From: Sandarakinorhabdus oryzae
GTDB taxonomy: Bacteria > Pseudomonadota > Alphaproteobacteria > Sphingomonadales > Sphingomonadaceae
Direction of reading: 5' to 3'
DNA: 40,986 nt
Assembly: GCF_009733735.1 (NCBI RefSeq)
Contig: NZ_WNJP01000006.1
Location: 1 to 40,986, forward strand
The translations under genes and the position numbers were made by a program. The notes under the pieces were generated by a model. That model made no database searches and was not told where the DNA came from. It saw only the letters and a program-made list of their open reading frames with translations. Shown here one piece after another: positions 6,362 to 18,621 of the stretch. Positions within the stretch are counted from its first letter, which is position 1; each line of letters starts with the position of its first letter.

Positions 6362-7132
6362 TTAGGCGGCAGCGCCCAGATAGCCCAGCTGTGCCGCCTT
6401 GAAGATCGTCTGGCTGCGGTTGACGGCGTTCAGCTTCTCGCCGGCGTTCTGGATGTGGAAACGCACGGTGGCGTGGCTGCGCGACAGGATCAGGCTGATT
6501 TCTTTGTCGGTCTTGCCGATGCTGGCCCAGCGCAGGCATTCCACTTCGCGCTTGGTCAGCTGGCAATCGCCCGGCAGCCAGCGCCGGGTGCGGTGCGCCT
6601 TCACATAGCCGGCCAGCCAGCGATGCGACATCAGCGCCAGGATATCGGCCCATTGCTCATATTCGGCCGAAAGGTCGGTGCGATTGGGATCGCGCGACAC
6701 GAAGCAGACCGCGCCGATCTGGCCGAACGGCAAGTGCACCGGCACCACGATGCTCGCCTTGGTCAGCGCGCGCTTCTCGAAATTCTCGAGGCTCATCTCG
6801 TCGAGATAGGGGTTGGGCTGGCGGGTGAAGAAGCCGCTGGCATTGGCCCAGAACACTTCGGATTCATACCGGCAGGCGCGCGGCAGCGGCGACGACAGGG
6901 CAAGCTTGCTGTCCTTCCACCACAGGTCATTCTCGCCGGTCCAGCCGAACACGTCGGCCGCCAGGATATTGCCGTCGGCATCCTCCATCGGCGCCTTGGA
7001 GGCGATGTTGTCGGAGGCGATCACGTGCAGGCCGGTCAATTCCAGCGCGATATCGCGCATGGCTTCAGCGGCGCGGCGCGCATCAGCCATGGATCGGATT
7101 GAAACGGCGGCAAGGCTGGCGTGCAGGTCCAT
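6362..7132 (-). CDS. LuxR-family transcriptional regulator (no partner luxI seen)
   Basis: A 256-residue regulator. Residues 191-250 are a LuxR-type helix-turn-helix: LTKREVECLRWASIGKTDKEI, then LSRSHATVRFHIQNAGEKLN. The N-terminal ~180 residues have the size of an acyl-homoserine-lactone-binding domain. However, the usual run of aromatic and Asp/Pro ligand-pocket residues is not recognisable in order; instead I see FGWTGENDLWW and a PVHLPFGQIGAVCFVSRD core resembling a divergent pocket or GAF-like fold. No luxI synthase is present. The gene is divergent from the multihaem cytochrome operon, with 238 nt between them, so it is a plausible regulator of that operon. This is inferred from position only. 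Confidence 0.85.
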   Translation of the reverse strand: MDLHASLAAVSIRSMADARRAAEAMRDIALELTGLHVIASDNIASKAPMEDADGNILAADVFGWTGENDLWWKDSKLALSSPLPRACRYESEVFWANASGFFTRQPNPYLDEMSLENFEKRALTKASIVVPVHLPFGQIGAVCFVSRDPNRTDLSAEYEQWADILALMSHRWLAGYVKAHRTRRWLPGDCQLTKREVECLRWASIGKTDKEISLILSRSHATVRFHIQNAGEKLNAVNRSQTIFKAAQLGYLGAAA

Positions 7133-7319: not shown

Positions 7320-7347
7320 TTGCATGTTGTCAGGGCTTTGCTACCCT
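7320..7347 (+). promoter_or_regulatory. Candidate promoter of the multihaem cytochrome operon
   Basis: TTGCAT (7320-7325) and TACCCT (7342-7347) are separated by 16 nt. This would start transcription about 15-20 nt before the TTG start at 7371. A long purine tract, GGGGGGAGGGAA (7358-7369), lies immediately before the start as a very strong ribosome-binding site. The -10 box is only a partial match to consensus. The rest of the 238-nt divergent region shows no clear operator palindrome. Confidence 0.35.
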
Positions 7348-7370
7348 GTGTCGCACCGGGGGGAGGGAAT

Positions 7371-8753
7371 TTGCACGCACCAGCAACCGGCAGCCACCGC
7401 GCTTGGAACAGGTTCGTCGCCCGGCTACGCCACGGGCTGCGAATCGCCGTGCTGGCCGGGCTGGCCATGGCTGCGGGCGCAGATGCAGCGCCGATTGATC
7501 GCGCGCTCCACCAGGGCGTCGCCAGTTGCGCCGGCTCCACTTGCCATGGCCGCCAGGAAGCTACCGGGCCGCGTGTGCGCCAGAACGAGGTGATGACCTG
7601 GTCTGATCCGGCCAGCCTGACCGGCGTGCACAGCCGCGCCTGGCGCGTGCTCAATGAACCGCGCGCGCAGGCCATCGGGCGGCGGCTGGGCATCACCAAT
7701 GTCGCTGCGGCGCCGGCATGCATCAGCTGCCACGGCGACCCGGCGACGGTGCGGGGCCCGCGCTGGCAGCAATCCGATGGGGTCGGCTGCGAGGCCTGCC
7801 ACGGCGGATCGGAACGCTGGCTGGCCAGCCATGCTAGCGTGAAGGCCAGCCATGCCGACAATGTCGCGCGCGGCATGTGGGCGCTCAATGATCCGGCGGT
7901 GCGCGCCAGTGTCTGCCTGGATTGCCATTTCGGGTCCGACAAGCCGGGCCAGTTCGTCTTCCACCGCCTCATGGCCGCCGGCCACCCGCGCATCGCCTTC
8001 GAGCTTGACCTGTTCACCGCCCTGCAGCGCCACCATAACGAGGATGCGGATTATGCGGCGCGCAAGGGTGTTGCCGGCGGGGTGAAGACCTGGGCGGTGG
8101 GCCAGGCGCTGGCGGTGGAGCGGGCGCTGTCGCTGTTGCCGGCGCAATCGGCCAGCCTGACCGGACCAGATTTCACCTTCTATGATTGTCGGTCCTGCCA
8201 CCGCACGTTCAGCGATGATCCGGCCGTGCCGATCGTCGCACGCACCAACAGCTGGCGGCCGATCCCGCCCGGCCAGCCGGTGTGGAATGACGAACAGATG
8301 ATCATGCTGGCCGCGGCCGCCCGGGTTGCGGCGCCGGACGTGGCGCGCAGCTTCGAGGCGCAGTCCCGGGCCTTTCACACGGCGATGGGCGGCGACCGGG
8401 CTGGCGCCATGAAGGCGGCCGCTGCCCTGAAGGCCACCGCGGCCACGCTTGCCCGGCGCTTTGCCGCGACTGCTTTTGATCGCGCGCAGACCTTTGCGCT
8501 GATCGAAGCGGTGCTGGTCGGCAACGCAGCGGCTTACACCGATTACCAGGGCGGCGCCCAGGCGGTGATGGCGGCGGACACGCTGCTCAGCGCGCTGGTG
8601 ACGGCGGGCCAGGTCAACCGCGCCGCCGCCGTTGCGCTGCGGCCCGATCTCGATCGCGCTTATGCCCTCGCGCGCGATGCCAATCGCTGGGATGCGCCGG
8701 CCTTCCAGGCGGCGCTGGCCCAGATCGCCACCCGAATGCGGGCGCTGAAATGA
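7371..8753 (+). CDS. Exported five-haem cytochrome c (c554-like motif spacing)
   Basis: A 460-residue protein. The TTG start at 7371 follows GGGGGGAGGGAA and is in frame with a signal peptide, HGLRIAVLAGLAMAAGADA, ending near residue 38. Five haem-attachment motifs are seen: CAGSTCH at 53-59 (an unusual CX4CH), then CISCH 117-121, CEACH 140-144, CLDCH 182-186 and CRSCH 273-277. The stretch 'GVGCEACHGGSERWLASHA' resembles cytochrome c554-type multihaem folds, in which closely packed haems pass electrons through the periplasm. The C-terminal ~150 residues are helical, Ala-rich and haem-free. It is the first gene of a four-gene operon and overlaps the next by 4 nt (ATGA). It probably hands electrons between a periplasmic donor and the larger cytochrome downstream; the donor is not in the window. 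Confidence 0.88.
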   Translation: MHAPATGSHRAWNRFVARLRHGLRIAVLAGLAMAAGADAAPIDRALHQGVASCAGSTCHGRQEATGPRVRQNEVMTWSDPASLTGVHSRAWRVLNEPRAQAIGRRLGITNVAAAPACISCHGDPATVRGPRWQQSDGVGCEACHGGSERWLASHASVKASHADNVARGMWALNDPAVRASVCLDCHFGSDKPGQFVFHRLMAAGHPRIAFELDLFTALQRHHNEDADYAARKGVAGGVKTWAVGQALAVERALSLLPAQSASLTGPDFTFYDCRSCHRTFSDDPAVPIVARTNSWRPIPPGQPVWNDEQMIMLAAAARVAAPDVARSFEAQSRAFHTAMGGDRAGAMKAAAALKATAATLARRFAATAFDRAQTFALIEAVLVGNAAAYTDYQGGAQAVMAADTLLSALVTAGQVNRAAAVALRPDLDRAYALARDANRWDAPAFQAALAQIATRMRALK

Positions 8754-10699
8754 GGCGGCTGCGCATCACGGCCGGCGTGGCCATGGCAGCCCTGCTGCTC
8801 GCCAGCTGTGGCGGCGGCGGTTCGCCCTCGACACCAGTGGCCGGGCCGACACCGTCGCCAACGCCCACGCCCACCAGCGTCTATGCCCGCCCCGCCGCCG
8901 AGGCGTTGAGCCCGGCCGAGGTGGAGACGATCATCGCCCGCGCCGCCGCCGAGGCCAGTGCCCGCGGGTCGCCGGCGGTGATCGCGGTGGTGGACCGGGT
9001 CGGCAATGTGCTCGCCGTCTATCGCATGGCCGGTGCCCGCGCGACGGCGCTTATCCCCCCCAACGCCAATGGCGCCAATATCGATGCGCAAGGGGTGACG
9101 GTGCCCGCCGAGCTGGCCGCCATCGCCAAGGCGATCACCGGCGCCTATCTGTCGTCGGGCGGCAACGCCTTTTCCACCCGCACCGCCTCGATGATCGTGC
9201 AGCCGCATTTCCCGCCCTCGGCGCGCACGGTGGGGCTGGAATCGGGGCCGCTCTATGGCGTGCAGTTCAGCCAGCTGCCCTGTTCCGATCTCAACACCCG
9301 CTTCGGCGTTGGCAGCCCCTTCATCGGGCCAAAGCGCTCGCCGCTGGGCCTCGCCGCCGATCCGGGGGGCTTCCCGCTCTACAAGAATGGCGTGGTGGTC
9401 GGCGGGGTCGGCATCATGGCTGATGGCGATTATGGCTTTGATCCCGAGGTGGTCGATGTCGACAATGACGATGAGGAGCATATCGCGCTTGCCGCCACGG
9501 CCGGCCATGCCGCGCCCGACGCCATCCGCGCCGAACGCATCTCTGTCGATGGCACATTGCTGCGCTATTCCGATGCGGTGCCGGCCAATCTGAAGAGCAA
9601 CCCGGCCAGCCCGCCAGCCTTTGCCAGCCTGACCGGCAGCCTGGTCGCCGTGGCTGGCTTCAATGCCGCCAGCATCATCGCTGGCACCCCCTATGGCAGC
9701 GAGGGCAGCGGCGTGCGCGGCGCCGCAGCAGCCGAGTTCAACCATCCCGATGCCTTTGTGCTCTCCGACGGGGCAGGCGCCAACCGCTACCCGATCCGGG
9801 CCGGCACCGACGCCGGCGACGTGACGCAGCCGCTCTCCGCGGCCGAAGTGCGCGCAGTGCTGGAAGAAGCCTTCACCATCATGGCGCGCAGCCGCGCGCA
9901 GATCCGCCTGCCCTTGGACAGCCGTAGCCAGAAAACCATCGCTGTCGTCGATACACGCGGCGCCGTGCTGGGCCTCGTGCGCTCCCCTGATGCGCCGATC
10001 TTCGGGACGGACGTGGCCCTGCAGAAGGCGCGCAGCGTCGCCTTTTTCTCCGGCCCCCGTGCGGGCAGCGATCTGGCCGCAGCTACCACGGCGCTGGGGG
10101 CGCCCGATCCCAATGTGCGCGATTTCGTGGCGCGGGTGACCGGCTTCTTCACCCAGCCGGGCGTGCTCAGCGGTGCCTTTGCCATCAGCAATCGCGCCAT
10201 CGGCAATATCAGCCGGCCCTATTTCCCCGATGGTGAAGTGGGCCGTCCGCCTGGGCCGCTGTCGCGCGACATCGCCGGCTGGTCGCCCTTCTCCACCGGG
10301 CTCCAGTCTGCGCTGATCATCCAGAACCTCGGCGACGTGCTGGGCGGCGGCGATCCGCGCCAGTGCACATTCCTGCCCAATACGCCCGGCGGCCAGAATC
10401 GGCTGGCCAATGGCCTGCAGATTTTCCCCGGCGGCGTGCCCATCTATCGCGGCACCGTGCTGGTGGGGGCCATTGGCGTCTCCGGCGACGGCATCGACCA
10501 GGACGACATGACCGCCTTCCTGGGCACCGCCAATGCCGCCACCCGGTTGGGCGGGAGTATTGGCCTGCCGCCGGCCAGCATCCGGTCTGACCAGATTGTG
10601 GTGAATGTCAGCGGCACGCCAGTGCGGTTGCGCTTCGTCAATTGCCCGTTCGCGCCCTTCCTCGACACGGCTGAGAATAATGTCTGCCAGGGGCGCTGA
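8750..10699 (+). CDS. Lipoprotein with two GlcG/HbpS (DUF336)-like domains
   Basis: A 649-residue lipoprotein. The signal peptide ends in the lipobox LLAS-C20, followed by a Gly/Ser/Pro/Thr linker (to about residue 42). The first GlcG/HbpS-like module begins LSPAEVETIIARAAAEASARG and includes AVVDRVGNVLAVYRM. A second begins near residue 365 with LSAAEVRAVLEEAF and continues IAVVDTRGAVLGLVRSP. HbpS proteins bind haem and iron and take part in redox sensing in actinobacteria; GlcG relatives are of unclear role. A duplicated, lipid-anchored version between two multihaem cytochrome genes suggests a haem-handling or redox-accessory role on a membrane surface. Translation is coupled to the upstream gene by an ATGA overlap. 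The family call is good; the function is inferred. Confidence 0.75.
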   Translation: MRRLRITAGVAMAALLLASCGGGGSPSTPVAGPTPSPTPTPTSVYARPAAEALSPAEVETIIARAAAEASARGSPAVIAVVDRVGNVLAVYRMAGARATALIPPNANGANIDAQGVTVPAELAAIAKAITGAYLSSGGNAFSTRTASMIVQPHFPPSARTVGLESGPLYGVQFSQLPCSDLNTRFGVGSPFIGPKRSPLGLAADPGGFPLYKNGVVVGGVGIMADGDYGFDPEVVDVDNDDEEHIALAATAGHAAPDAIRAERISVDGTLLRYSDAVPANLKSNPASPPAFASLTGSLVAVAGFNAASIIAGTPYGSEGSGVRGAAAAEFNHPDAFVLSDGAGANRYPIRAGTDAGDVTQPLSAAEVRAVLEEAFTIMARSRAQIRLPLDSRSQKTIAVVDTRGAVLGLVRSPDAPIFGTDVALQKARSVAFFSGPRAGSDLAAATTALGAPDPNVRDFVARVTGFFTQPGVLSGAFAISNRAIGNISRPYFPDGEVGRPPGPLSRDIAGWSPFSTGLQSALIIQNLGDVLGGGDPRQCTFLPNTPGGQNRLANGLQIFPGGVPIYRGTVLVGAIGVSGDGIDQDDMTAFLGTANAATRLGGSIGLPPASIRSDQIVVNVSGTPVRLRFVNCPFAPFLDTAENNVCQGR

Positions 10700-10700
10700 G

Positions 10701-12548
10701 ATGCGGGCGCTGCTACTGATCCCGCTGCTCACGACCGCCACGCCGGTGTTGGCCAAGCCGTTTGGCAAATGGTTCGATTGTTATGCCAAGGTGACGCCGC
10801 CCACGGAGCGGCTGCCCGGCGAGCCCGAAGCGGGCCCGTCCGATCCCGCCACTGCACCGCTGGCAGGACGACGCGTACCCGGTATGGGCGGGCCGCAGAC
10901 GTGGGACCCGGTGGTGCAGGCCAATGCCGGCGCGGTGGCCTGGCCTCGCCAAGGCGATTTCCCGGTTGATCATCTGCCGGTGCCGGACCGCTGGCGGCTG
11001 ATCGAGACGCTGGGGCTGGTCAAATCCAACTGGAAGGACCCGTACAACCAGAACACGCTGAAGGGCGATCGACCGATCTGCGGCACGCACGATCTGTTTC
11101 TGCAGCTCACCGCCATTTCCGACACGGTCGCCGAACCGCGCAGCTTCCCGACACCGGTCGGTGTGCAGACCACGGAGCGGCCGGGCAGCAACGACGTCTT
11201 CGGCCGCCAGTACAGCGAAGTGTTCGCGCAGACCTTCATCCTGGGTGCGGCGCTGACCAAGGGTAGCACCGCCTTCAAGCCGCCGGAATTTGAATTGCGC
11301 GCGGCGCTGGCCTTCAACTTCAACCATGTCGACGTGACGGAACGGCGGGTGCTGTCGGTGCTGCCGTCAAAACGATCCTTGCGCTCGGATGCTTTCGTCG
11401 GCGTGCAGGAATTGTTCCTCGATTATCACCTGCGGAACACCTCGGACCGCTACGACTTCGATTCGCTGCGCATCGGCATCCAGCCCTTCTCCAGCGATTT
11501 TCGGGGCTTCCTGTTTCAGGACAACCAGCTCGGCATCCGCCTGTTCGGCAACCGCGACAACAACCGGTTCCAGTACAACCTCGCCGCCTTCTGGCGGTTG
11601 GAGAAGGACACGAATTCGGGCCTGAACGCCATCCTGCGCAGCCCGCGCCGGGATTATGTGCTGGTCGCCAACCTCTACCGGCAGGATTTCCCGCTGCCCG
11701 GCCTGACAAGCCAGATCAGCGCCACCTGCAACGCCAATCGCGAGCGGGGTGATGTGCAGGTCGATACCAACGGCTTTCCGGTGCGCCCGGCGCTGCTCGG
11801 CACACTGCGCGGGCGCAATTATGATGTCGTCTATCTCGGCTACAACGCCGATGGCCACATCGGCCGGCTGAACCTGACCTTCAGCGGCACCTACGCCACG
11901 GGGAGCAATCGCAACAACATCTTCACTGACCGGCGCGCCAGGATCAGCAGCTGGTTCGCCGCGTTCGAGCCGAGCTATGACCGCGGCTGGGTGCGGCTGC
12001 GCGGCGCGGCGCTGTTCGCCAGCGGCGATTCCAACCCCTATGACGATGTCGACAGCGGCTATGCGGCGATCTTTGAAAACCCACAGTTCGCCGGTGCCGA
12101 CACGAGCTACTGGGTGCGCCAGACCATCCCCTTCGCCGGCGGCGGCCGCGCCATCGCGGTCAACAGCCGCAACGGCCTTTTGAATGATCTGCGCTCATCC
12201 AAGGAGCAGGGCCAGGCCAATTTCACTAACCCCGGCACGATGCTGCTGGGTGCCGGCGCCGATTTCGATGTGCTCCCCGAACTCAGGGTCAGCGGCAACG
12301 TGAACCATCTGTGGTTCGCCACCACCGCCACGCTGCAGGCGCTGCGGGTGGAGGGCTCGATCCCGAAGGACATTGGCTGGGACCTGTCGGCTGCGGCCAC
12401 CTACCGCCCGCACTTCAATCAGAACCTGGTCTTCCGCCTGTCGGGCGCGATGTTGAAGCCCGGCGATGGCTTCAAGGACCTGTTCACCAACGCGCCGCGC
12501 ACCGGGTCATACTATTCGGTGCTGTTCAACGCCGTGCTGGCCTATTGA
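10701..12548 (+). CDS. Outer-membrane beta-barrel protein of the cytochrome operon
   Basis: A 615-residue exported protein. The signal peptide is MRALLLIPLLTTATPVLA, with cleavage before KPFGKW. From about residue 190 the chain shows long alternating polar/hydrophobic strands with aromatic girdles (FELRAALAFNFNHVDV, YNLAAFWRLEKD, YDVVYLGYNADGHIGRLNLTF) and ends in an aromatic-terminated strand, YYSVLFNAVLAY. These are hallmarks of an outer-membrane barrel. I do not see the N-terminal CXXC of MtrB/PioB. By position it could be the pore that holds or exports the neighbouring cytochromes, or an alginate-export-like porin. The first ~130 residues are Pro-rich and probably periplasmic. The start ATG is 1 nt after the preceding stop and the next gene starts 1 nt after its own stop. 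Confidence 0.72.
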   Translation: MRALLLIPLLTTATPVLAKPFGKWFDCYAKVTPPTERLPGEPEAGPSDPATAPLAGRRVPGMGGPQTWDPVVQANAGAVAWPRQGDFPVDHLPVPDRWRLIETLGLVKSNWKDPYNQNTLKGDRPICGTHDLFLQLTAISDTVAEPRSFPTPVGVQTTERPGSNDVFGRQYSEVFAQTFILGAALTKGSTAFKPPEFELRAALAFNFNHVDVTERRVLSVLPSKRSLRSDAFVGVQELFLDYHLRNTSDRYDFDSLRIGIQPFSSDFRGFLFQDNQLGIRLFGNRDNNRFQYNLAAFWRLEKDTNSGLNAILRSPRRDYVLVANLYRQDFPLPGLTSQISATCNANRERGDVQVDTNGFPVRPALLGTLRGRNYDVVYLGYNADGHIGRLNLTFSGTYATGSNRNNIFTDRRARISSWFAAFEPSYDRGWVRLRGAALFASGDSNPYDDVDSGYAAIFENPQFAGADTSYWVRQTIPFAGGGRAIAVNSRNGLLNDLRSSKEQGQANFTNPGTMLLGAGADFDVLPELRVSGNVNHLWFATTATLQALRVEGSIPKDIGWDLSAAATYRPHFNQNLVFRLSGAMLKPGDGFKDLFTNAPRTGSYYSVLFNAVLAY

Positions 12549-12549
12549 G

Positions 12550-15500
12550 ATGCTGAAGCGGCTTCTCCTCCTGGCGCTGATCCCCTTGGTGGGCGTCGCC
12601 CTCGCGTCGGAAGGCGAGAAGCCGGTGGCGCGCGATTATGCCCGCGTGACCGCCCCGCCCGCGCCGAAATGGCAGACGCTGGAACAGGCCGCCGCCAAGT
12701 CCGCCGGCTGCATCAGCTGCCACACGGCCAGCGACGAATCGACCATGCACGCGCCAAAGTCGGTCGTGCTGGGCTGCACCGATTGCCATGGCGGCGACCC
12801 GAAGATCATCGCGCCTGCCGCGCTGGCGGCGACGGACCCCAATTATGCCAAGCTGCGCGATGAGGCGCATGTGCTGCCGATGTTCCCGGAAAGCTGGCAC
12901 TTCCCGTCGTCGGCCAACCCCAAGCGCAGCTACACCTTGCTCAACCGCGAAGCCCCGCAGTTCGTACGCTTCGTCAATCCGTCCGACTATCGCGCCGCCC
13001 GCGATGCCTGCGGCGCTTGCCACCTAGAAATCATCGAGCGGGCCGAACGCAGCCTGATGGCGACGGGCGCCATGCTGTTCGGCGGCGCGGCCTATAACAA
13101 CGGCATCCTGCCCTACAAGAATTATGTCTTGGGCGAGGCCTATACGCGCCCCGGCCAGGCCAGCGCGTTGCTGGGCGCGTGGAACGGAGATGCCTCCGGC
13201 CATGGCGAGATCGGTCTCAAGCATGACGAAAAGGCCGGGCGCGACAACAGCCTGCCCGCTCTGGTCTTCAGTCCGGATGGCCTGAGCCCGGCCGCCAAGG
13301 CCCGTGGTGCGTTGCCCTTCCTCGCCCCACTGCCCACCTGGCAGGTGATCCCGCCGGCCGACATCTTCCGCGTGTTCGAACGTGGCGGCCGCAACATCAA
13401 CCCCTCCTTCCCGGAAATCGGCCTGCCCAATTCGCTGGGCGCCCTCCAGCGGCTGGAGGAGCCGGGCCGGCCCGACATCCGCCAATCCAACCGCGGCCCC
13501 GGCACCGGCCTGCGCATCGCCGTGCCGGTGATCAACATCCACAAGACGCGCCTCAACGACCCCTTCACCTGGTTCATGGGCACCAATGATCAGCCGGGTG
13601 ACTATCGCACCTCGGGCTGCGGGTCCTGCCACATCGTCTATGCCAATGATCGCGAGGTGCGGCACTCGTCGGTTTATGCCGCTGCCGGGCGCGACGGGCA
13701 GAGCCAGAGCGTGGACCCGACGATCAACAAGGCGGAACCCGGCCACCCCATCACGCACAGCTTCAGCCGGGCCATGCCGTCCAGCCTGTGCATGAACTGC
13801 CACATGCACCAGCCCAACATGTTCCTGAACACCTATTACGGCACCACCATGTGGGATTATGAAAGCGACGCCCCGCGCATGTGGCCGGGCGCGGCCAATC
13901 CCTATCCCAGGCCGCCGGGCATGAGCGAGGCGGAATTTGAACGACTGTTCAAGCGCCAGCGTTACCCCACCGCCGCCGAGGTGCGCGAAGCCAATGACCG
14001 CAACCCGGAAGGCGCCGCCGCTCATGGCGCCTGGAGCGACCTCGATTTCTTGCGCACAGTCAATGACCGCAACGACAAGATGAAGGACACCCAGTTCGCC
14101 GATTATCACGGCCACGGCTGGAACTTCCGCGCCGTCTACAAGCGCGACCGCGAGGGCAATCTGCTCGATGCCGGCGGCAACATGGCAACATATGGCACCG
14201 ACACCGCCCATATCGTCGCCAATGATGACCCGGAGAAGTTCCGCAAGGCCGGCGCCCCCCAGTTCGTCAAGCCCGCCGCCACCCCCGGCCCCGGCCAGCC
14301 CGGCAAGGCCGTGCATCTGATGGACATCCACACCGAGGTGGGCATGCAGTGCGCCGATTGCCACTTCGCGCAAGACAGCCACGGCAATGGCTTCATCCAC
14401 GGCGAGGTGGCCAACAGTGTCGAGATCGGCTGCAAGGATTGTCACGGCACCGCCGATGCCTGGCCAACGTTGAAGACGTCCAATCTCGCCGCGCCACCGG
14501 CCGGCACTGATCTGTCGATCCTGCGCAATCCTGATGGCCGGCTGCGCTTCGAATGGGGGGTGCAGGATGGCCGGCGGGTGCTGTGGCAGCGCTCGGCGAG
14601 TGACCCCAACCTCGTCTGGCGGGTGAAACTGGTGAAGGACAGCGTCACCCGCGACCACCCGGATTTCAACCCGAAGGCGGCGCGGGCGAAACTGGTCGGA
14701 ACCTTGCGCGCGACCGGGGGGACGATGGCCTTCGGCCCCGGGGTGAGCGAACGGGCGCACAAGGACGACAACATGGCCTGCTTTGCCTGCCACACCAGCT
14801 GGACCACCAGTTGTGGCGGTTGCCACCTGCCGATCGAGGCCAACTGGAAGACGACGACCAACAAATATGAGCAACAGGAAACCCGCAACTTCGCCACCTA
14901 CAATCCGCAGGTGGCGCGCGATGACATGTTCCAGCTCGGCCGCCACCAGACCAGCAAGGGCAGCATCATCGCCCCGATCCGCTCATCCTCGGCGCTGATC
15001 CTGACCAGCACCAACATCAACCGCGAACGCATCTATGTGCAGCAGCCGCCGATCGCGGCGTCGGGCTTCTCGTCCCAGGCCTTCGCACCGCACTTCCCGC
15101 ACACAGTGCGCACCCAGGAAACCAAGACCTGCAGCGATTGCCATGTCAGCGCCGATGACGACAACAACGCCATCCTGGCGCAGCTGACCCTGCAGGGCAC
15201 CAACTTCGTCAACTTTGTTGGCATGAACGCCTTCTTCGGCCTGGATCGCGCCGTCGAAGCCGTGCGGGTGACGGAATTCGGCGAGCCGCAGGCGGTGTTC
15301 GGCTCCTACCTGCACCGTTATGCCTACCCGGATTATTGGAAGCTGCATGTCGAGCAGAACAAGCGCGAACTGATCAACTGGACGCGCGGGCGCATCTTCG
15401 ACAAGCGCCTGTCAGGCGAGACCAACCCGACCGAGGATATCCGCAACATCACGCAAGGCACCGCCGGCGAGGTGCGCTGCATCCAGAACCGCGGCGAATA

Positions 15501-16689
15501 TCTCTATGTCGCCGAAGGCAAGGGCGGTTTCGTCGCCTATGACATCGCCAACCTTGCCAACAAGGGCGTGTCAGAGAAGATCGTGAAATCGCCCTTCTCG
15601 GCGCTGGGCCACGATGCGCAGGTGAAGACAAGCAATGCCACCTGCATGGCGCTCGCCACCAACCAGCCGATCAGCGTGCCGCGCAACGATGTGATGCAGT
15701 ATCAACAGGATGCGCGTGCGAACGGCAAGCCGCTGCCCGACGGCCTGGCGGGCTATAACCAGGAGCAGAAGCTGCACGAGATCTACCGCTATGCGGTGGT
15801 GACGGACGCGCAGGAAGGGCTGGTGCTGGTCAATGTCGATACGCTCACCGACGGCGAGCCGCGCAACAATTTCCTGCGGCGCCGCAGTTTTGAAGGCGGC
15901 GGCGACCGCTGGAACCCGGCCGGCGTGCTCACCGGTGCCCGCCACATCACGCTGGCCGGCCATATCGCGTACATCACAAAGCCGAACGCGCTGGTGGTGG
16001 TAGACCTCGACAACCCGCGCGCGCCGAAGCTGAAAGCGGTGCTGCCGCTGAAGGACGCGCGCGCGAGCGCCGTGCAGTTCCGCTACCTGTGGGTGACGAC
16101 CGCGAACGGCCTCGAAGTCTTCGACATTGCCGATCTCGCGCGGCCGATCCATCACCCGGAAGCAACGTTGCCGATTGCCGACGCGCGCAAATTCTACGTC
16201 GCCCGCACCTATGCCTATGTCGCCGCCAAGGGGGACGGGCTGGTGATCGTTGACGTGAAGAAGCCGCTGGCGCCGCGCCTGTATCAGCGCTTCACGGCGA
16301 ACGGCACGCTCAATGATGCCGAGGACGTGGTGGTGGCCAGCACCAATGCGTCGCTGTTTGCCTATGTCGCCGATGGCAGGAACGGCGTGAAGGTGCTGCA
16401 GCTGACCAGCCCCGAAAGCCAGCCCAATTTCTATGGCTTCTCGCCGAAACCGATGCCGGAGCTGATCAGCTGGGCCCGCACTGCCCGCCCGGCGCTGTCA
16501 GTGGCCAAGGGCCTCGACCGCGACCGCGCCGTGGACGAGACCGGCGGCCAGATCGCCGTGCTGGGCCGGCTGGGTTCGCGCCCGTTCAACCGCCAGGAGA
16601 CCGAGCGCTTCTTCATCGGCGAGAATGGTCAGCCCTATCGCGTGACCGACCGGGTCGACATGGGGGCGTGGTCGCCGCTCAGGAAGTAG
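12550..16689 (+). CDS. Decahaem cytochrome c fused to an LVIVD-type beta-propeller
   Basis: A 1379-residue exported protein with signal peptide MLKRLLLLALIPLVGVALAS. Ten CXXCH haem sites begin at Cys54, 76, 154, 357, 414, 601, 628, 744, 755 and 861. From about residue 976 to 1290 six repeats of the pattern (Y/A)xYVAxxxxGLVIVDVxxPxxP occur, for example ALVVVDLDNPRAPK, GLEVFDIADLARPI and GLVIVDVKKPLAPR. These match LVIVD repeats and predict a propeller with about six blades. Such propellers usually sit at the cell surface and bind partners. The haem part is large, with long haem-free inserts between sites 3 and 4 and between 5 and 6. It closes the operon; its stop is 3 nt from the convergent alkylsulfatase-like gene. 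A surface or periplasmic terminal reductase or oxidase is a reasonable inference; the substrate is unknown. Confidence 0.88.
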   Translation: MLKRLLLLALIPLVGVALASEGEKPVARDYARVTAPPAPKWQTLEQAAAKSAGCISCHTASDESTMHAPKSVVLGCTDCHGGDPKIIAPAALAATDPNYAKLRDEAHVLPMFPESWHFPSSANPKRSYTLLNREAPQFVRFVNPSDYRAARDACGACHLEIIERAERSLMATGAMLFGGAAYNNGILPYKNYVLGEAYTRPGQASALLGAWNGDASGHGEIGLKHDEKAGRDNSLPALVFSPDGLSPAAKARGALPFLAPLPTWQVIPPADIFRVFERGGRNINPSFPEIGLPNSLGALQRLEEPGRPDIRQSNRGPGTGLRIAVPVINIHKTRLNDPFTWFMGTNDQPGDYRTSGCGSCHIVYANDREVRHSSVYAAAGRDGQSQSVDPTINKAEPGHPITHSFSRAMPSSLCMNCHMHQPNMFLNTYYGTTMWDYESDAPRMWPGAANPYPRPPGMSEAEFERLFKRQRYPTAAEVREANDRNPEGAAAHGAWSDLDFLRTVNDRNDKMKDTQFADYHGHGWNFRAVYKRDREGNLLDAGGNMATYGTDTAHIVANDDPEKFRKAGAPQFVKPAATPGPGQPGKAVHLMDIHTEVGMQCADCHFAQDSHGNGFIHGEVANSVEIGCKDCHGTADAWPTLKTSNLAAPPAGTDLSILRNPDGRLRFEWGVQDGRRVLWQRSASDPNLVWRVKLVKDSVTRDHPDFNPKAARAKLVGTLRATGGTMAFGPGVSERAHKDDNMACFACHTSWTTSCGGCHLPIEANWKTTTNKYEQQETRNFATYNPQVARDDMFQLGRHQTSKGSIIAPIRSSSALILTSTNINRERIYVQQPPIAASGFSSQAFAPHFPHTVRTQETKTCSDCHVSADDDNNAILAQLTLQGTNFVNFVGMNAFFGLDRAVEAVRVTEFGEPQAVFGSYLHRYAYPDYWKLHVEQNKRELINWTRGRIFDKRLSGETNPTEDIRNITQGTAGEVRCIQNRGEYLYVAEGKGGFVAYDIANLANKGVSEKIVKSPFSALGHDAQVKTSNATCMALATNQPISVPRNDVMQYQQDARANGKPLPDGLAGYNQEQKLHEIYRYAVVTDAQEGLVLVNVDTLTDGEPRNNFLRRRSFEGGGDRWNPAGVLTGARHITLAGHIAYITKPNALVVVDLDNPRAPKLKAVLPLKDARASAVQFRYLWVTTANGLEVFDIADLARPIHHPEATLPIADARKFYVARTYAYVAAKGDGLVIVDVKKPLAPRLYQRFTANGTLNDAEDVVVASTNASLFAYVADGRNGVKVLQLTSPESQPNFYGFSPKPMPELISWARTARPALSVAKGLDRDRAVDETGGQIAVLGRLGSRPFNRQETERFFIGENGQPYRVTDRVDMGAWSPLRK

Positions 16690-16692
16690 GGC

Positions 16693-18621
16693 TTACGGCG
16701 CAACCAACGGGAAATCGGCTTTCGGCGGCTGGAACAGCGTCATGAAGCGCTGCAGCACCGCCAGATCACCCTTGATATCCAATTGCCCCGCCGCAATCAG
16801 GTCAGGCGCCTTCACCGCGCCGCCGATCAGCCCGATCAGCGCCCGGCGCGGCACCACCAGCGTGGCCTGCGCCGCGTCGCTGACGCCCTTTTCGTGCAGC
16901 ATCACGCCGTTGCCGATGGTCACGAGGTGGCGCTCCTTGGCGTCCGGAATTTCAAACGCGATGGTCATCGGCGCGATCGCCCGCTCCGGCACCAGCCGCA
17001 CCGACATGGAATCGAGCAGGTTCGTCACCGACAGATTGGCGGCAATCCCGGCCGCTGCGGCCTGGGTGCTGGGCCTGATGCCCTGTTCCAGTTCCTGCGC
17101 GCCGGTCAGATAGAAATCGCGCCACGGCGCGGATTCTGCCCGCCAGGCCAGTTGGCGATAGACACCAGCGAGCGCCGCCTTGGCGCCCGGCGTATCGGGC
17201 GCAGCGCGCACCAGCGTCGAAAGCAGGGTTGCAGCCCAGCGGTCATCGCCCTTGGCAGCGGCCGCCTTGCCGGCGGCCAGCACCTTCTTGGGCCCACCCA
17301 TCTGCGCCACCAGCTTTGGCGCCAGCACGGCGCGCGGCAACGGGTCGAGATTGGCGGGATCGCCATCAAAAGCGCCGAGGTACCGCTGGTACACGGCGCG
17401 GGCGTTGAACTTCAGGCTGCCGTAGTTGGGCCTGTTGAACCAGGCCGTGGCCAGCGGCGCCGGCAGTTTGATGGCCTCGCCGATCTCGACCGCGTTCAGG
17501 CCCTGGTTCATCAGCAGCACGCTTTCATTGTGCACGAAGGCATAGGCCTGGGCATGGCGCAGCAGGTAATCGTTGATGTGATCCTTGCCCCAGCGCGGCC
17601 AGAAATGGCTGGTGAACAGCACATCCGCTTGTGCACCCCAGCGCCGCCGCGCCTCCACCAGATAATCGGCCCAGCCCTTGGCATCGCGCACCAGGGCGCC
17701 GCGCGGGGTGAGCAGATTGTGCATGGCGCCATTGGCGTTCTCGGCCAGGCACAGCGCCTTCCATGCCGGCAGGTAGAAATTCATTTCGGCCGGCGCTTCG
17801 GTGTTGGGCGTGACCTGGAACACCAGTTCCACCCCGTCGATCGTGCGCGTGTCGCCGGTGGCCTTGATCGTGTCTGTGGGCGGGATCAGGCCATAGGTGC
17901 CGGGCGTGCCCATCGGCCCCAGGCCGGAGGAGACATGGCCCGTCGCACCGCGTGGCAGCATGCTCCCGAACATGTAGCTGGCGCGGCGCAGCATGGCTGG
18001 GCCAGCAATCACGTTCTCTGACACGGCGTGTTCCAGAAAGCCGTCCGGCGCGATGATCTGCACCTTGCCGCCCGCGACGTCGGCCGGGCTGGTCACACCC
18101 AGCACGCCGCCGAAATGATCAACGTGGCTGTGGGTGTAGATGACGGCGACCACCGGCCGCGGGCCCAACTTGGCGTTGACCAGTGCCAGGGCCGCCTTGG
18201 CGGCTTCGGCGCCGGTGAGCGGATCAACGAGGATCCAGCCCGTGTTGCCGCGAATGATCGTCATGTTGGAAAGGTCGAACCCACGCACCTGCCAGATGCC
18301 GTCGGCGACCTGGAACAGGCCATGCCTGGCGAGCAGGGTGGCGTTGCGCCACAGGCTGGGGTTGACCGTGGCCGGCGCCGGGCCGGTGAACTGCGCCTCG
18401 TTATCGAGGTCGCGCAGCACCTCGCCCTTGTCGTTGCGGATCTTGCCGTCCGGGATGGACCCCATGAAGCCGCGCGCAGCAAAGTCGAAATCCTGCGTGT
18501 CAGCCCAGTTCAGCGTCGCAGCCAGCGCTGCGTTGTCGGCCTGCGCCGCCGGGCTTGCCGTTGGTGGCGGCGGCGCTGCTGCGGCCGTGGCGAGGAGGAG
18601 GGCGATGAGGTGCGGTGTCAT
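16693..18621 (-). CDS. Alkylsulfatase-like metallo-beta-lactamase-fold hydrolase
   Basis: A 642-residue protein with an N-terminal signal peptide (MTPHLIALLLATAAAA). The metal motif THSHVDHFGG (163-172) supplies His164, His166, Asp168 and His169. Further family features are AENANGAMHNLLTPRGALVRDA, with the Glu and His ligands, and FTSHFWPRWG. The order of an N-terminal binuclear-metal domain, a helical dimerisation domain and an SCP2-like C-terminal domain (about 520-642) matches SdsA1-type alkylsulfatases (about 650 residues). Those enzymes cleave alkyl sulfates such as dodecyl sulfate in the periplasm. The gene is last in a seven-gene minus-strand run, 31 nt after the thioesterase gene. Actual sulfatase activity is inferred from architecture. 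Confidence 0.82.
   Translation of the reverse strand: MTPHLIALLLATAAAAPPPPTASPAAQADNAALAATLNWADTQDFDFAARGFMGSIPDGKIRNDKGEVLRDLDNEAQFTGPAPATVNPSLWRNATLLARHGLFQVADGIWQVRGFDLSNMTIIRGNTGWILVDPLTGAEAAKAALALVNAKLGPRPVVAVIYTHSHVDHFGGVLGVTSPADVAGGKVQIIAPDGFLEHAVSENVIAGPAMLRRASYMFGSMLPRGATGHVSSGLGPMGTPGTYGLIPPTDTIKATGDTRTIDGVELVFQVTPNTEAPAEMNFYLPAWKALCLAENANGAMHNLLTPRGALVRDAKGWADYLVEARRRWGAQADVLFTSHFWPRWGKDHINDYLLRHAQAYAFVHNESVLLMNQGLNAVEIGEAIKLPAPLATAWFNRPNYGSLKFNARAVYQRYLGAFDGDPANLDPLPRAVLAPKLVAQMGGPKKVLAAGKAAAAKGDDRWAATLLSTLVRAAPDTPGAKAALAGVYRQLAWRAESAPWRDFYLTGAQELEQGIRPSTQAAAAGIAANLSVTNLLDSMSVRLVPERAIAPMTIAFEIPDAKERHLVTIGNGVMLHEKGVSDAAQATLVVPRRALIGLIGGAVKAPDLIAAGQLDIKGDLAVLQRFMTLFQPPKADFPLVAP

Follow-up and report, generated by a model that had tools for sequence, protein, structure and literature searches.

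What does an operon for two multihaem cytochromes, a lipoprotein and a predicted beta-barrel do in Sandarakinorhabdus oryzae, an aerobic-looking sphingomonad, and from which donor would its electrons come? The operon, hereafter A-B-C-D, lies on the plus strand of a stretch of 40,986 nucleotides (RefSeq assembly GCF_009733735.1, contig NZ_WNJP01000006.1), the whole of which we call the window. A model that had seen only this DNA (the original prediction below) had suggested an undescribed electron conduit or, alternatively, a haem-handling system. We propose, at what we judge to be an even chance of being right, that A-B-C-D forms the outer-membrane half of an electron chain of seven proteins spanning the envelope, with a core of the PCC4 type and a swapped outer end.

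Gene A (7371..8753), recognised by its reading frame, haem motifs and Pfam matches, codes for an exported, C554-like pentahaem cytochrome; it starts with TTG at 7371, with GGGGGGAGGG immediately 5' of this codon. It overlaps by 4 nucleotides gene B (8750..10699), whose reading frame, lipobox and HbpS-like PF03928 matches indicate a lipoprotein. Gaps of 1 nucleotide each separate B from C (10701..12548), a predicted outer-membrane beta-barrel according to its structure model and without Pfam match, and C from D (12550..16689), an exported decahaem cytochrome with C-terminal LVIVD repeats of the beta-propeller type, as given by its CXXCH count and Pfam. The four genes are translationally coupled. 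Their positions and joints, and the nature of the four products, were all as the original prediction had described them, including the addition of an HbpS-type lipoprotein and of a propeller-bearing cytochrome.

Protein A contains four CXXCH motifs and one CX4CH motif, hence five haems, and is a probable periplasmic carrier. The ten CXXCH sites of D extend from residue 54 to residue 865 (12709..15144, by motif positions), and its top-scoring LVIVD repeat in the Pfam scan covers residues 1216-1248 (16195..16293). The Pfam scores were 78 bits for PF03928 in B, and 63.9 bits for LVIVD and 36.7 bits for cytochrome C7 in D. The export signals claimed for all four proteins were recovered: the lipobox of B reads LASC, a loose lipobox pattern being present near the N-terminus in 61 of 71 open frames of B, and the N-termini of A, C and D look like signal peptides by inspection. 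In searches of the sequences of the Protein Data Bank (PDB), A matched cytochrome c554 (E 0.0099) and D had no match up to E 1. An AlphaFold model of the haem domain of D had a mean predicted local distance difference test (pLDDT) score of 35.7 and was discarded.

The label of B bears on the possibility that the operon acquires haem or iron, B binding it and D reducing it. PF03928 is in favour of this reading, which we nevertheless consider most improbable, since the alignment of B homologues contained four further conserved Cys and no conserved His, the best PDB sequence match of B was EfgA (6bws, E 2e-6) and no haem transporter was present among the annotated neighbours (only part of the recurrent neighbours being annotated). 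Haem handling as the main role, for which the HbpS-like label was the sole evidence, was not supported.

A tblastn search of genome contigs with D retrieved 466 relatives at E <=1e-3, of which we examined the best 80, corresponding to 81 D sequences together with that of the window. These 80 relatives were all titled Alphaproteobacteria or members of this class, except for L038 ("Proteobacteria" only). The complete set A-B-C-D was present in 70 of the 81 loci, the remainder containing C-D (7), D (2), A-C-D (1) or B-C-D (1). Eight of these 11 incomplete loci begin at or near the locus end, and the three others (L008, L010, L062), with no contig edge at the place of the missing genes, have whichever of A and B is lacking beside C-D elsewhere in the genome. 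The A-B pair is separate from C-D in L008, where the contig ends just past B, and in L062; in Sandarakinorhabdus AAP62 (L010), A runs directly into C (8113-8155) and B is outside the operon, alone on another contig (L120, 9636-12053). The ten CXXCH motifs of D were kept in 81/81 sequences and the 4+1 haem sites of A in 70/71, the exception evidently being L058, whose A is truncated at the end of the locus; the pattern is therefore not due to chance. The homologues thus keep a common order instead of being scattered, in agreement with the idea of a conserved multihaem unit resembling an electron conduit in an aerobic-looking sphingomonad. Named hosts include Sphingobium, Novosphingobium, Erythrobacter and Phenylobacterium, and the system is widespread in aerobic Sphingomonadales and also present in Caulobacterales.

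As the original prediction had noted, no inner-membrane donor was found within the window, but its conclusion that the donor is unknown no longer holds, because three candidate genes (E, F and G) are present in the same genome and, in many relatives, a gene set E to H directly follows D on its 3' side, encoded on the other strand. This set was complete in 31 of the 80 loci and partial in 15, some of them truncated where the fetched DNA stops. In the genome of the window, the four reading frames are on the minus strand of contig C379 (L084), with E at 11097-13685, F at 10177-11097, G at 8291-10261 (probable ATG near 10168) and H at 7345-8433.

The association was also apparent in one even sample of 318 genomes of the class (completeness >=90), used alike for A, C, D, F and NapC/NirT. 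We detected D in 25 genomes, C in the identical 25, A in these 25 plus four others, and F in 33 (two of them weak), including all 25 genomes with D and all 29 with A. The association of D with F was strong (Fisher p 1.6e-30, shared descent being ignored). F and D were on the same contig in 20 of the 25 genomes and on different contigs in five, including that of the window. In 18 of the 20, both genes had the same orientation, F lying 5.3 to 6.9 kb upstream of D; the two others, which belong to the family of the window, had them on opposite strands. In a phylum-wide set, D was found in 15 of 397 genomes, 13 matches being clear and two short and weak (40 and 45 bits). One clear D outside the class (G594, L109) belongs to a single minus-strand run E-F-G-B-C-D-A, and a run E-F-G-B-C-D was present in L110. 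A to D and E to G very probably form one functional unit. A donor of the NapC/CymA type was rejected: NapC/NirT (PF03264) had no match in the genome of the window and was present in 36/318 genomes and in 2 of the 25 with D, about the chance expectation (25 x 36/318 = 2.8).

E is a flavoprotein with an NAD(P)-binding fold, two cyclic-nucleotide-binding domains and 4Fe-4S domains. Its C-terminal 260 residues contain 16 or 17 Cys in 38/38 sequences, which could be the ligands of four 4Fe-4S clusters. Two phosphate-binding-cassette motifs for cyclic nucleotides were recognised in 34 of the 38; strict GxGxxG motifs numbered two in 19, one in 18 and none in one, and Pfam covers both nucleotide-binding folds. 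F (around 300 amino acids) is a cytochrome b-like membrane protein without Pfam match, with two WX3HX13H motifs in 42/42 sequences and SGXXG between them in 32/42; the F of our genome has both motifs and SGLWG, and four segments over the hydropathy threshold plus a fifth, weaker one recognised by eye. PDB sequence searches produced no match for E (to 1e-20) or F (to E 1). G combines an FHA-like N-terminus, a hydrophobic segment and 10 CXXCH, a number also found in the G of our genome, and matched NrfB in the PDB (E 0.014). The FHA label is weak, our own G matching only a related profile (23.4 bits for a cut-off of 33.2), although the G of L109 passes the FHA profile (23.0 for a cut-off of 20.7). 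H is a metallophosphoesterase, that of L032 resembling cyclic-nucleotide phosphodiesterases below the curated cut-offs.

Two side observations concern the surroundings of these modules. In Phenylobacterium (L024, 14451-17234), a CHASE2 adenylate cyclase and a phosphoesterase are encoded near A-B-C-D, which fits a control of E by cyclic nucleotides. Genes for cytochrome c maturation (CcmF and CcmH-type TPR proteins) recur beside the electron-transfer modules (L084 13761-15746; L130 2563-4497 and 11972-13084; L032 20129-21091; L131 23209-24180); our genome contains two separate CcmF, one of them adjoining E-F-G-H on C379.

The core of this system is not without precedent. He et al. (2017; PMC5566968) describe PCC4 as comprising a porin, a conserved protein of the inner membrane, three periplasmic cytochromes (4, 5 and 10 sites) and further redox proteins, state that it has no extracellular cytochrome, and liken the WX3HX13H signature of PCC3 and PCC4 to the b-haem sites of ferric reductases. 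With PCC4 so described, our genome shares the inner-membrane protein with two WX3HX13H and SGXXG (F), a 10-haem cytochrome (G, presumably periplasmic), a PF13247-type Fe-S domain and a barrel gene; A, with 4 CXXCH and an additional CX4CH, may correspond to the 4-haem cytochrome. PCC4 is described with a 5-haem cytochrome, and the system of the window has the propeller decahaem D, possibly extracellular, and the lipoprotein B. A search without positive control, made with an alignment built from clusters assigned to PCC4 by their content, found no match to the PCC4-type 5-haem protein in our genome.

To see what accompanies the core elsewhere, we read the DNA around F in six genomes with a strong F and no D (L103 to L108), in which B, C and D were all absent from the stretches read. 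Four of them (L103, L104, L106, L107) had E. All six had G, the L105 match being weak and the L108 copy truncated at the end of its contig, and all six had an A-type protein with 4 CXXCH; the A matches of L105 and L108 were weak, and these two were not counted as having A in the 318-genome set. In L103, L104 and L105, assigned to PCC4 by gene content, a C554-type protein with 5 CXXCH is followed by a presumed barrel of about 530 to 550 amino acids, without Pfam match in the two that were scanned. Barrel C had no detectable similarity to these three presumed PCC4 barrels, themselves assigned by cluster content (hhalign probability 0.2%), and the 5-haem protein had only one haem motif in common with D (23 columns, probability 18%). 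The same core is thus associated with unrelated outer modules. No outer module was found in the stretches around F of L106, L107 and L108. In the tree of E, the genomes lacking B-C-D grouped with the distant run L109 on long branches, and this tree was not used to date the swap. The core E-F-G-A fits the PCC4 type proposed in 2017, whereas the outer module B-C-D differs from it.

In the chain that we propose, E, possibly gated by a cyclic nucleotide, would oxidise cytosolic NAD(P)H, and F would move the electrons through the inner membrane via two b-haem sites. The membrane-anchored G (10 haems) and A (5 haems) would bring them through the periplasm to D, with its 10 haems and propeller, which may be held at the outer membrane by C and B and pass them to an external or outer-membrane acceptor. 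The whole wire would contain about 25 haem groups. It is reasonably likely that D extends as far as the outer membrane or the cell exterior; for the direction of the flow, we lean only somewhat towards outward, the electrons being probably exported from NAD(P)H.

Several observations weigh against this chain. No gene from E to H was present inside the fetched DNA in 34 of the 80 loci, and in our own genome A-B-C-D and E-F-G are on different contigs. Moreover, the PCC4 flow proposed by He et al. is from an extracellular donor to quinone (PMC5566968). The same proteins might indeed work inward: D would oxidise a donor outside the cell, for example Fe(II), Mn(II) or reduced organic compounds, and the electrons would reach quinone or NAD(P)+ via A, G, F and E. 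This would agree with the way PCC3 and PCC4 were both drawn in that source, with the iron- or manganese-rich habitats of some hosts and with the PCC3/PCC4 inner-membrane motif of F. We consider it unlikely, given the NAD(P)-binding flavoprotein fold of E with its four predicted Fe-S clusters and the ferric-reductase-like HX13H pairs of F. A flavoprotein and Fe-S protein combined with HX13H pairs is the usual layout for NAD(P)H-driven export and so counts against inward flow, as do the named hosts, which are known chiefly as aerobic heterotrophs.

The main doubt about the conduit comes from the narrowness of the barrel. C models as an outer-membrane barrel of the AlgE/OprD type, with 18 strands by our own count and a mean pLDDT of 67.7, residues 1-125 being below 50 and the N-terminal 130 residues or so having no confident model. 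Its best fold match was AlgE (Foldseek E 9.1e-16; VIA Z 27.7, root-mean-square deviation 3.0, 360 aligned), followed by OprD/Occ channels (Z <=26.0). Among the matches listed, AlgE, OprD and Occ ranged from Z 22.7 to 27.7, and AlgE and OpdQ were less than 2 apart in Z; aromatic-acid channels were also present (OpdK with vanillate, BenF-like). The PDB sequence search produced a single weak match, a repressor (E 0.52). The alignment of C contained no conserved Cys and hence no MtrB-like CXXC, confirming the original prediction on this point. Neither fold search had MtrB among its 50 listed matches, a limit that still leaves room for it. Barrels of 18 strands are far slimmer than MtrB, which is wide enough to enclose a multihaem wire, whereas C probably is not. 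C may flank or support the cytochromes without enclosing them, or it may be a substrate channel.

In the latter case, only the substrate would cross the outer membrane, and D, together with B, would act in the periplasm as the terminal oxidoreductase for a small molecule that has been imported. The matches of C to AlgE, OprD and Occ, including the aromatic-acid channels, are in favour of this possibility. So is D itself, whose location is putative: a Cys is present within the 45 residues preceding the first CXXCH in 1/81 sequences, so that D has no lipobox, and its 16 conserved His besides the ten of the CXXCH motifs leave room for a catalytic site. We regard such a channel as improbable. E-F-G and A-type carriers are found together with an unrelated outer pair too (the 5-haem protein and the presumed barrel), and this speaks for a generic transfer step at the outer membrane. 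LVIVD repeats are known from surface proteins.

Compared with other known systems, A-B-C-D shares with MtrCAB, MtoAB and PioAB a barrel and periplasmic, possibly outer, multihaem cytochromes. It differs from MtrCAB and MtoAB by the lack of a DmsE-type decahaem cytochrome (TIGR03508 gave 15.2 bits with A for a cut-off of 192.2 and did not list D at E <=1), and from MtrCAB-type systems by the lack of a match to a NapC/CymA-type donor in the genome. D was below all NCBIfam cut-offs for Mtr families. Its similarity to the Ext selenite/tellurite cytochromes is a weak multihaem one, and D was rejected as ExtM, ExtN or ExtO (75.4, 36.4 and 36.6 bits for cut-offs of 800, 200 and 200). PCC3 has its overall plan in common with this system, and its inner-membrane motif is similar; it differs by its cytochromes, which have a very high number of haems in repeats, and by its barrels, for which up to 42 transmembrane regions are predicted (PMC5566968). 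The genome of the window also contains a PCC3-like cluster (contig C79, L130, 2563-14391), with cytochromes of 25 and 21 CXXCH, a 275-amino-acid membrane protein with two WX3HX13H, an Fe-S/flavoprotein, CcmF, a CcmH-type protein and a possible barrel of 871 amino acids matching SPOR and, below the threshold, TPR.

The literature searched, which covered few subscription papers, contained no description of the B-C-D module, and we found nothing joining "multiheme cytochrome" with LVIVD or a Sphingomonadales porin with multiheme extracellular electron transfer. The proposed conduit falls outside MtrCAB by the family cut-offs used and, within the literature covered, is new in its outer module, its core fitting a type already proposed. 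We tentatively go one step further, to a reading that we hold to be doubtful as a whole: a quinone-independent, cyclic-nucleotide-gated NAD(P)H oxidoreductase would span the envelope of common aerobic alphaproteobacteria and export electrons via a swappable outer module, B-C-D being a new kind of module with its AlgE/OprD-type 18-strand barrel and propeller decahaem. If so, ordinary aerobic heterotrophs of soil and water, beyond the metal-respiring specialists, may have extracellular electron transfer built in and move electrons across the whole cell wall, through a conserved core carrying exchangeable outer ends. The hosts being culturable, the PCC4 proposal of 2017 becomes directly testable.

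Within the window, A is divergent from a LuxR-type regulator gene on the minus strand (6362-7132; sub-threshold autoinducer-binding match), a possible regulator of the operon, and D is convergent with a gene for an alkyl-sulfatase-type metallo-beta-lactamase (16693-18621, minus strand), located directly 3' of D in 9/81 loci including the window. We also detected D in 13 of 72,556 plasmid records, 12 from Sphingobium and one from Sphingopyxis, 11 being typed as non-mobilizable and two as conjugative. One of the latter, pMSHV of Sphingobium herbicidovorans (L131, 794285-821020), carries the whole ABCD and HGFE cluster, with ShlB/FhaC-type secretion genes on both sides and, upstream, a 2092-amino-acid protein without Pfam match; its A to D are annotated as 'cytochrome c family protein', 'heme-binding protein', 'hypothetical protein' and 'multiheme c-type cytochrome'.

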